From the NCBI GenBank assembly GCA_003212625.1, contig QCPI01000001.1:124001-188000 (forward strand): DNA of 64,000 nt, given 5' to 3'. Under the pieces are notes generated by a model. That model saw nothing but the letters and a program-made list of their open reading frames with translations, had not been told where the DNA came from and ran no database searches. Positions 3,328-4,531 of this stretch are shown one piece after another (the first letter of the stretch is position 1; the number at the start of each line of letters is the position of its first letter). The stretch comes from Prochlorococcus sp. AG-436-J02. Its GTDB lineage: Bacteria; Cyanobacteriota; Cyanobacteriia; PCC-6307; Cyanobiaceae. Made by a program: the position numbers and the translations under genes.

Positions 3328-3561
3328 CTATTTTCTGAGATTAGTTATTGATTCATCTTCTTGATCATCCTTTTCATCCCAACCCCAGCTTCTTTTTATA
3401 TCTTTTAATGACCTGCCACTATCCTTTTGTAGAGGACTTAAAGGAATCCAACTCCAATCAAGTAAAAGAGTAGCGGCAACTCCAAAAAGTATATGGCCAA
3501 AAAGTACGCCTATTACATCTATTTTAGTAAGTGACTCTTGCCCAATAGAGGGATCGTACAA
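3328..3561 (-). CDS. hypothetical protein (77 aa)
   Basis: ORF with a hydrophobic N-terminal half and acidic C-terminus. Confidence 0.5.
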   Translation of the reverse strand: MYDPSIGQESLTKIDVIGVLFGHILFGVAATLLLDWSWIPLSPLQKDSGRSLKDIKRSWGWDEKDDQEDESITNLRK

Positions 3562-3713
3562 ATTTTCTGAACCATACTGAATTTAATTATAGGAAATCTT
3601 TTTGAGCTTTTAAGAAGAAATCAAGCTTTATTTTTATATATAGTTTTTTCTAATGTGAGTGATCATTTTTAATAGTATGTTCGGTTGACCACCATCAACA
3701 AGAACACAGCCCC

Positions 3714-3731
3714 GTTACATTACTTTACATA
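3714..3731 (+). promoter_or_regulatory. HLR1-like direct repeat, putative RpaB binding site
   Basis: GTTACATT-AC-TTTACATA matches the cyanobacterial HLR1 consensus (G/T)TTACA(T/A)(T/A)NN(G/T)TTACA(T/A)(T/A) at every defined position; lies 15 bp upstream of the first hli start codon. Confidence 0.65.
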
Positions 3732-3746
3732 AATTACTCTTTTAAA

Positions 3747-3854
3747 ATGACTCCTGAAGCAGAAAAGTTCAACGGTTGGGCGGCAATGCTTGGCTTTGTC
3801 GCAGCTTTCGGCGCATATGCATTAACTGGGCAAATTATTCCTGGAATTTTCTAA
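3747..3854 (+). CDS. hli: high-light-inducible protein (35 aa) MTPEAEKFNGWAAMLGFVAAFGAYALTGQIIPGIF
   Basis: Hand-translated; HLI signature NGWAAMLGF and C-terminal TGQIIPGIF; too short for the ORF track. Confidence 0.88.
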   Translation: MTPEAEKFNGWAAMLGFVAAFGAYALTGQIIPGIF

Positions 3855-3867
3855 ACATTTTTTCACC

Positions 3868-3987
3868 ATGAAACCATCTAACAAAACAATTCTTGAAAGG
3901 AGTATCGGAAGGCCAGCAATGATGACTTTCGTTCTTCTAACAGGTATCTACCTTATAACTGGTCAACTTATCCCTGGAGTTGTGTAA
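3868..3987 (+). CDS. hli: high-light-inducible protein (39 aa) MKPSNKTILERSIGRPAMMTFVLLTGIYLITGQLIPGVV
   Basis: Hand-translated; single-helix HLI with TGQLIPGVV C-terminus. Confidence 0.85.
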   Translation: MKPSNKTILERSIGRPAMMTFVLLTGIYLITGQLIPGVV

Positions 3988-4133
3988 TGACTATTCAAAA
4001 AAATGAAGAAAGAAACATTGATCCTGAAAAAGTAACTGCAGAAAGGCTTAACGGCTACGCAGCTCTATTTGGTTGTATCGCCTTAGTTGGCGCTTATGCA
4101 ACAACAGGTCAAATCATTCCAGGCTTTGTTTGA
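3987..4133 (+). CDS. hli: high-light-inducible protein (48 aa) ...VTAERLNGYAALFGCIALVGAYATTGQIIPGFV
   Basis: Hand-translated; HLI motif plus TGQIIPGFV; start overlaps previous stop (taATG). Confidence 0.88.
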   Translation: MTIQKNEERNIDPEKVTAERLNGYAALFGCIALVGAYATTGQIIPGFV

Positions 4134-4252
4134 TGGAAAATAAATTCTGGAAAACTGCTGAGCAGATAAATGGTCGTCTCGCGATGATTGGTTTATTTGC
4201 AGCAGTAGTTAATTATGGATTTACTGGTTGGATAGTTCCTGGAATTATCTAG
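4133..4252 (+). CDS. hli: high-light-inducible protein (39 aa) MENKFWKTAEQINGRLAMIGLFAAVVNYGFTGWIVPGII
   Basis: Hand-translated; canonical chlorophyll-binding motif EQINGRLAMIG; start overlaps previous stop (tgATG). Confidence 0.9.
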   Translation: MENKFWKTAEQINGRLAMIGLFAAVVNYGFTGWIVPGII

Positions 4253-4267
4253 ATTCATAAAATAATT

Positions 4268-4296
4268 AAAAGCTCTCAAATTTCGAGGGCTTTTTT
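4268..4296 (+). terminator. Rho-independent terminator of the hli operon
   Basis: Hairpin AAAAGCTCTC..GAGGGCT followed by TTTTTT directly after the last hli stop. Confidence 0.7.
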
Positions 4297-4336: not shown

Positions 4337-4531
4337 TTAGAGAAAAATCCCTTTTGATTGAACAAAGATATGAAAAGCTGGATTATGAAGATATTCAATA
4401 TATAAAGCGATTAAAAATGCACCACTTAAGCAGGTACTAGCAATTATTGATCCAAAAATAACAACTGGTTTTTTTCTCACGATTGACTGCGGATCTGCAA
4501 TTACAAATCTCTTTAATCTTGAGACAGTCAT
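4337..4531 (-). CDS. hypothetical membrane protein (64 aa)
   Basis: ORF with one TM segment (VVIFGSIIASTCLSGAFLIALYIEYL). Confidence 0.45.
   Translation of the reverse strand: MTVSRLKRFVIADPQSIVRKKPVVIFGSIIASTCLSGAFLIALYIEYLHNPAFHIFVQSKGIFL

Follow-up and report, generated by a model that had tools for sequence, protein, structure and literature searches.

The hli genes of Prochlorococcus strains such as MED4 and NATL2A encode short single-helix proteins ending in TGQxIPG, which occur in many copies, are clustered, and are also found in phages (PMC2663038, PMC6102989). In Synechocystis PCC 6803, the hli/scp genes are placed under the control of NblS-RpaB, and an HLR1 element embedded in their core promoters, at a distance of 3-13 bp upstream of the start site, is associated with repression in low light (PMC6331805). 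Clusters of hli genes are also harbored by the cyanophages P-SSM2, P-SSM4, P-SSM7, P-HM1, and P-RSM4. A further related case is the PhoB control of the cyanophage pstS and other genes, in which a phage metabolic gene is subject to a host two-component regulator of the OmpR family (cited in PMC10976474).

The locus analyzed in this work is located on the plus strand of a stretch of 64,000 nt (hereafter, the window) of Prochlorococcus sp. AG-436-J02, a member of the low-light LLI clade whose assembly comprises 1.05 Mb and is 54% complete. It resembles the multicopy clusters in all the respects listed above; nevertheless, it represents a clade-wide syntenic locus rather than an island copy, and it is preceded by an exact HLR1 and by a conserved upstream block. 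The HLR1 in the putative core promoter is shared with Synechocystis, where, however, single genes are found instead of a four-gene operon with a predicted operator. The phage clusters share with it the protein types, fragments of the gene order, the 1-nt overlaps, and, in most cases, an HLR1-like element at the promoter; they differ in having a strong TTGACA/TATATAAT promoter before the element and, usually, a longer hli of 65 aa as the first gene, and none of them matches all four host genes. As for the PhoB system, it responds to phosphate, whereas light/redox and RpaB are proposed here from the sequence. Clusters of this kind are already well known, and the operon adds one more copy to them. 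It comprises the following features:

3678-3699, plus strand: conserved upstream block TGTTCGGTTGACCACCATCAAC / TGTTCGGTTGNCCACCATCAAC, 22 nt, about 15 nt upstream of HLR1
3714-3731, plus strand: HLR1 element GTTACATTACTTTACATA, predicted RpaB operator, exact match to KTTACAWWNNKTTACAWW
3747-3854, plus strand: hli gene 1, type T1, 35 aa, motif EKFNGW, PHROG 178 E-value 7.5e-20
3868-3987, plus strand: hli gene 2, type T2, 39 aa, motif ERSIGR, PHROG 178 E-value 5.9e-9
3987-4133, plus strand: hli gene 3, type T3, 48 aa, motif ERLNGY, PHROG 178 E-value 1.6e-15
4133-4252, plus strand: hli gene 4, type T4, 39 aa, canonical motif EQINGR, PHROG 178 E-value 1.1e-15
4268-4294, plus strand: intrinsic-terminator-like hairpin with a T tail, 10-bp stem, z = -2.3

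The four consecutive tiny ORFs (positions 3747-4252) that the original prediction had assigned to hli genes are all present with the lengths and at the positions it gave, and the junctions, read directly, exhibit the overlaps it had described, that is TAATG between genes 2 and 3 and TGATG between genes 3 and 4 (1 nt each); a gap of 13 nt separates genes 1 and 2. The terminator hairpin claimed downstream of gene 4 was also recovered, and has a stem of 10 bp and a T-rich tail; its significance is only moderate, given that a hairpin scan alone also yields one site of this type in each shuffled region. Since there are two overlaps, one terminator, and one promoter region, we infer that the four genes would be transcribed as a single mRNA and translationally coupled. 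The genes are indeed missing from the ORF track, as had been noticed, and the explanation is the size threshold of the track, the genes being short. The surroundings had been described as AT-rich and gene-sparse. The first description fits the flanks alone (27-31% GC) and not the operon, whose GC content is 39.5% versus 33.6% in the window; the second is not clearly appropriate, both adjoining minus-strand ORFs (3328-3561 and 4337-4531) being conserved. The former is a small ORF, divergent to the hli operon and provided with its own TATAAT-like promoter.

The assignment to the HLIP/SCP family is based on sequence homology, since all four peptides match PHROG 178, “high light inducible protein”. 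The Pfam chlorophyll a/b profile PF00504, which the original prediction had indicated as a check, recognized gene 4 (23 bits against a cut-off of 22.3) and left genes 1-3 below the cut-off, and an NCBIfam profile search of the four peptides gave no match. The C-terminus TGQ(I/L)IPG is found in three of the four genes, as anticipated, gene 4 ending in TGWIVPGII; the attribution to the multicopy class also carried by cyanophages is in agreement with PHROG 178 and with the phage matches. The LHC motif ExxNxR is complete only in gene 4 (EQINGR), and the substitutions in the other genes (R to W in gene 1, N to I in gene 2, R to Y in gene 3) are kept in the orthologues, hinting that the four proteins might have divided their labor or might form heterodimers. 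The incomplete assembly embeds 14 hli-like matches. A second four-gene hli cluster, which starts with a 68-aa hli type, is located on a separate contig (C41, L004:1415-2032), and no clear HLR1 site was detected there.

The consensus recognized by the OmpR-type regulator RpaB is the HLR1 sequence KTTACAWW-N2-KTTACAWW (PMC13421787). When HLR1 lies between -38 and +23 of the start site, transcription is repressed in low light and set free in high light (PMC13421787, PMC6331805), and the hli/scp genes are standard RpaB targets in model cyanobacteria (PMC6331805, PMC13421787). The element at 3714-3731, which ends 15 nt before the first ATG, matches this consensus perfectly; it is the only HLR1 match in the window, even when one mismatch is allowed, and the only exact one in the 1.05-Mb assembly, where about 0.4 exact sites would be expected by chance (1e-5 for an upstream stretch of 60 nt). 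Among the 25 syntenic copies sharing the upstream sequence, the element is exact in 16, has one mismatch in six and two in one, and is unrecognizable in two; thus, it is preserved with at most one mismatch in 22/25 of them. In the orthologues it is placed 14-19 nt before the ATG, and the leader bases between the site and the ATG diverge. It must be underlined that nothing but the perfect match and its conservation is counted here, the scan of the host genome at one mismatch being uninformative (five sites versus four for a reversed-pattern control, that is, no enrichment genome-wide), and that HLR1 is degenerate or absent at some of the further hli copies which this genome contains. No clear -10/-35 boxes were found adjoining the host HLR1; a site placed 15 nt before the ATG would, in any case, fall within the repression zone for any short leader. 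The RpaB gene was not found in the 54%-complete assembly, and it is encoded by the LLI relative G002 (NF045944, 392 bits, cut-off 330). We regard the HLR1 site as a solid addition to what had first been read in this sequence, and as a predicted RpaB operator. The block at 3678-3699 is also conserved in the syntenic LLI copies, at a near-constant distance from HLR1, and has a single match in the assembly with up to two mismatches allowed; it may represent an activator site.

HLR1-like sites were also observed upstream of cyanophage hli clusters, just after the -10 box. The usual anatomy of these phage promoters consists of TTGACA, about 17 nt, TATATAAT, 1-4 nt, GTTACAGTTCTTTACAAA or a similar sequence, 3-15 nt, and the ATG. 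In 12 phage records, 12 sites have no more than one mismatch, and eight of these immediately precede hli (three are in one phage, and some of the phages are near-duplicates); the same is true for 5/11 sites in 14 further records. The upstream windows of 80 IMG/VR hli loci (11.9 kb in all) contain 19 sites with no more than one mismatch versus 15 in the remaining 755 kb, and reversed or shuffled motifs gave 0-3 sites in the same windows. At no more than two mismatches within 45 nt, the element precedes hli in 24 out of 60 distinct IMG/VR upstream sequences, compared with six of the 1686 ORFs of the phages P-HM1, P-SSM7, S-PM2, and P-SSM4 (Fisher p about 2e-32, a value inflated by relatedness), and five of these six lie at the hli promoters themselves. 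As the phage hli promoters carry an RpaB-operator-like element in the repression position, we propose a control of phage hli by RpaB. Indeed, the presence of the same type of operator suggests that phage hli may be under the host RpaB, and the chances are, in our opinion, slightly better than even that cyanophages keep an HLR1 operator across the transcription start of their core hli genes, by which the photosynthetic state of the infected cell would, through the host's light/redox regulator RpaB, hold down or release phage hli expression.

A different explanation, which we consider less probable but which deserves serious attention, is that the phage sites represent a promoter or leader feature which was inherited together with hli and which looks like HLR1 through descent or because of an AT-rich composition. 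Several of the sites are in fact degenerate, above all in the Synechococcus phages, which often possess weaker versions of the element (GTAAAGATTCATTACGAA), and related phages are not independent of each other. Moreover, some matches at one mismatch (TTGACAAAACTTTACAAT) overlap the -35 box; these are not counted as firm, and the argument concerns the element after the -10 box. Against this explanation, in the whole-genome scans of the four phages mentioned above, one promoter-like site out of 138-182 in each genome carries it, always that of hli, with 1-2 mismatches after the -10 box versus at least four at every other promoter-like site. In addition, none of 3000 column-shuffled motifs fits as well as HLR1 on 32 sequences below 75% identity, and the position of the element corresponds to the known repression zone.

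NtcA and Pho sites are known in cyanophages, which were searched for both by Sullivan et al. in 2010 (PMC3037559), so that the dyad might be attributed to NtcA or PhoB rather than to RpaB; this appears quite improbable, given that GTA and TAC, where present in the phage sites, are 9 nt apart and not 8, that the first half is mostly GTTAC, and that a CTTA-N7-CTTA repeat is not seen by eye. The NtcA reading (GTA-N8-TAC) was itself compared by eye and discarded on its spacing.

Coming back to the control of phage hli by RpaB, the published data do not contradict it. The metabolic genes of P-HM2, including hli, belong to the middle transcription class and are expressed at a higher level in the light than in the dark (PMC5082946); this does not represent a test of the model, because all phage transcription is higher in the light. 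The hli2 gene of S-PM2d lacks a Pho box and nevertheless increases when phosphate is limiting (PMC10976474). No report joining HLR1 or RpaB to cyanophage promoters was found in the open-access papers searched.

The similarity with phages raises the question of the origin of the operon itself, which the original prediction had imagined as possibly mobilised by phage. A stretch related to it was found in 41/41 LLI genomes searched, and in 17/20 sister-genome regions (up to 17 kb each) the gene order is the same on both sides, a count that includes one region whose contig stops shortly downstream of the operon; the remaining three regions represent other copies. Because relatives keep the four proteins (79-97% aa identity) with a dN/dS of about 0.03-0.2, that is, under purifying selection, the genes can be considered real. 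Gene 1 shows 97% aa identity and a dN/dS of about 0.02-0.04 in the orthologues tested, and gene 2 is conserved in the LLI clade with a dN/dS of about 0.1; the overlap between genes 2 and 3 is retained in all the copies that were read completely, and gene 4, intact here, is decayed or lost in many syntenic LLI copies. The comparison with cyanophage hli genes that had been indicated placed LLI hosts, and not phages, as the nearest relatives of gene 1, even though this is a weak check, the tree having been built on 105 nt with little resolution. A non-syntenic position, a patchy distribution, and a near-identical phage copy, which would be the marks of a phage-mobilised cassette, were not observed.

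Hence the idea of a recent phage-delivered cassette can hardly be maintained: the class is common in phages, and P-SSM2 (L106:1404-1767) and P-SSM7 (L113:1432-1795) carry ORFs similar to genes 1, 2, and 3 in the same order and with 1-nt overlaps, but the operon occupies a single syntenic locus, a coverage of 80% of the four-gene block is not reached by any phage record, the best phage matches of gene 2 reach only about 50-62% identity, and the closest kin of gene 1 are hosts. Since P-SSM2 and P-SSM7 share the gene order and the overlaps, an older exchange between host and phage is likely to have occurred. From the comparison of these genomes, we conclude that the operon is to be read as vertically inherited at a conserved locus of LLI Prochlorococcus, and not as a phage-mobilised insert.

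The reading that we favor, to which we assign a probability of roughly 0.8, is thus that of a vertically inherited four-gene hli operon devoted to light stress, repressed in low light through RpaB and HLR1, and derepressed in high light. Its observed basis consists of the genes with their homology, the conserved locus, the purifying selection acting on them, an HLR1 that is both exact and conserved, and the RpaB gene of a sister genome. According to this model, the operon would encode four different single-helix chlorophyll-binding stress proteins, a function that we infer from homology. In the simplest mechanism, phosphorylated RpaB would sit in low light on the HLR1 at 3714-3731, within the predicted core promoter, and block transcription. 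An over-reduced acceptor side of the photosystem, or high light, would make RpaB leave, and the operon would be switched on. The hli proteins might then protect the photosystems and free chlorophyll.

The host operon is itself of a well-understood kind, and it is the HLR1-like element of the phages that deserves a test at the bench. The operator and the matching phage elements bear on why hli is a core gene of T4-like cyanophages and on when it is used, as phage hli may be read out via the host's own high-light sensor. If this were true, RpaB would be the second host two-component system, after PhoB, to be exploited by marine viruses, and, in the photosynthetic cells that are the most abundant of all, the expression of phage genes would be linked to light.
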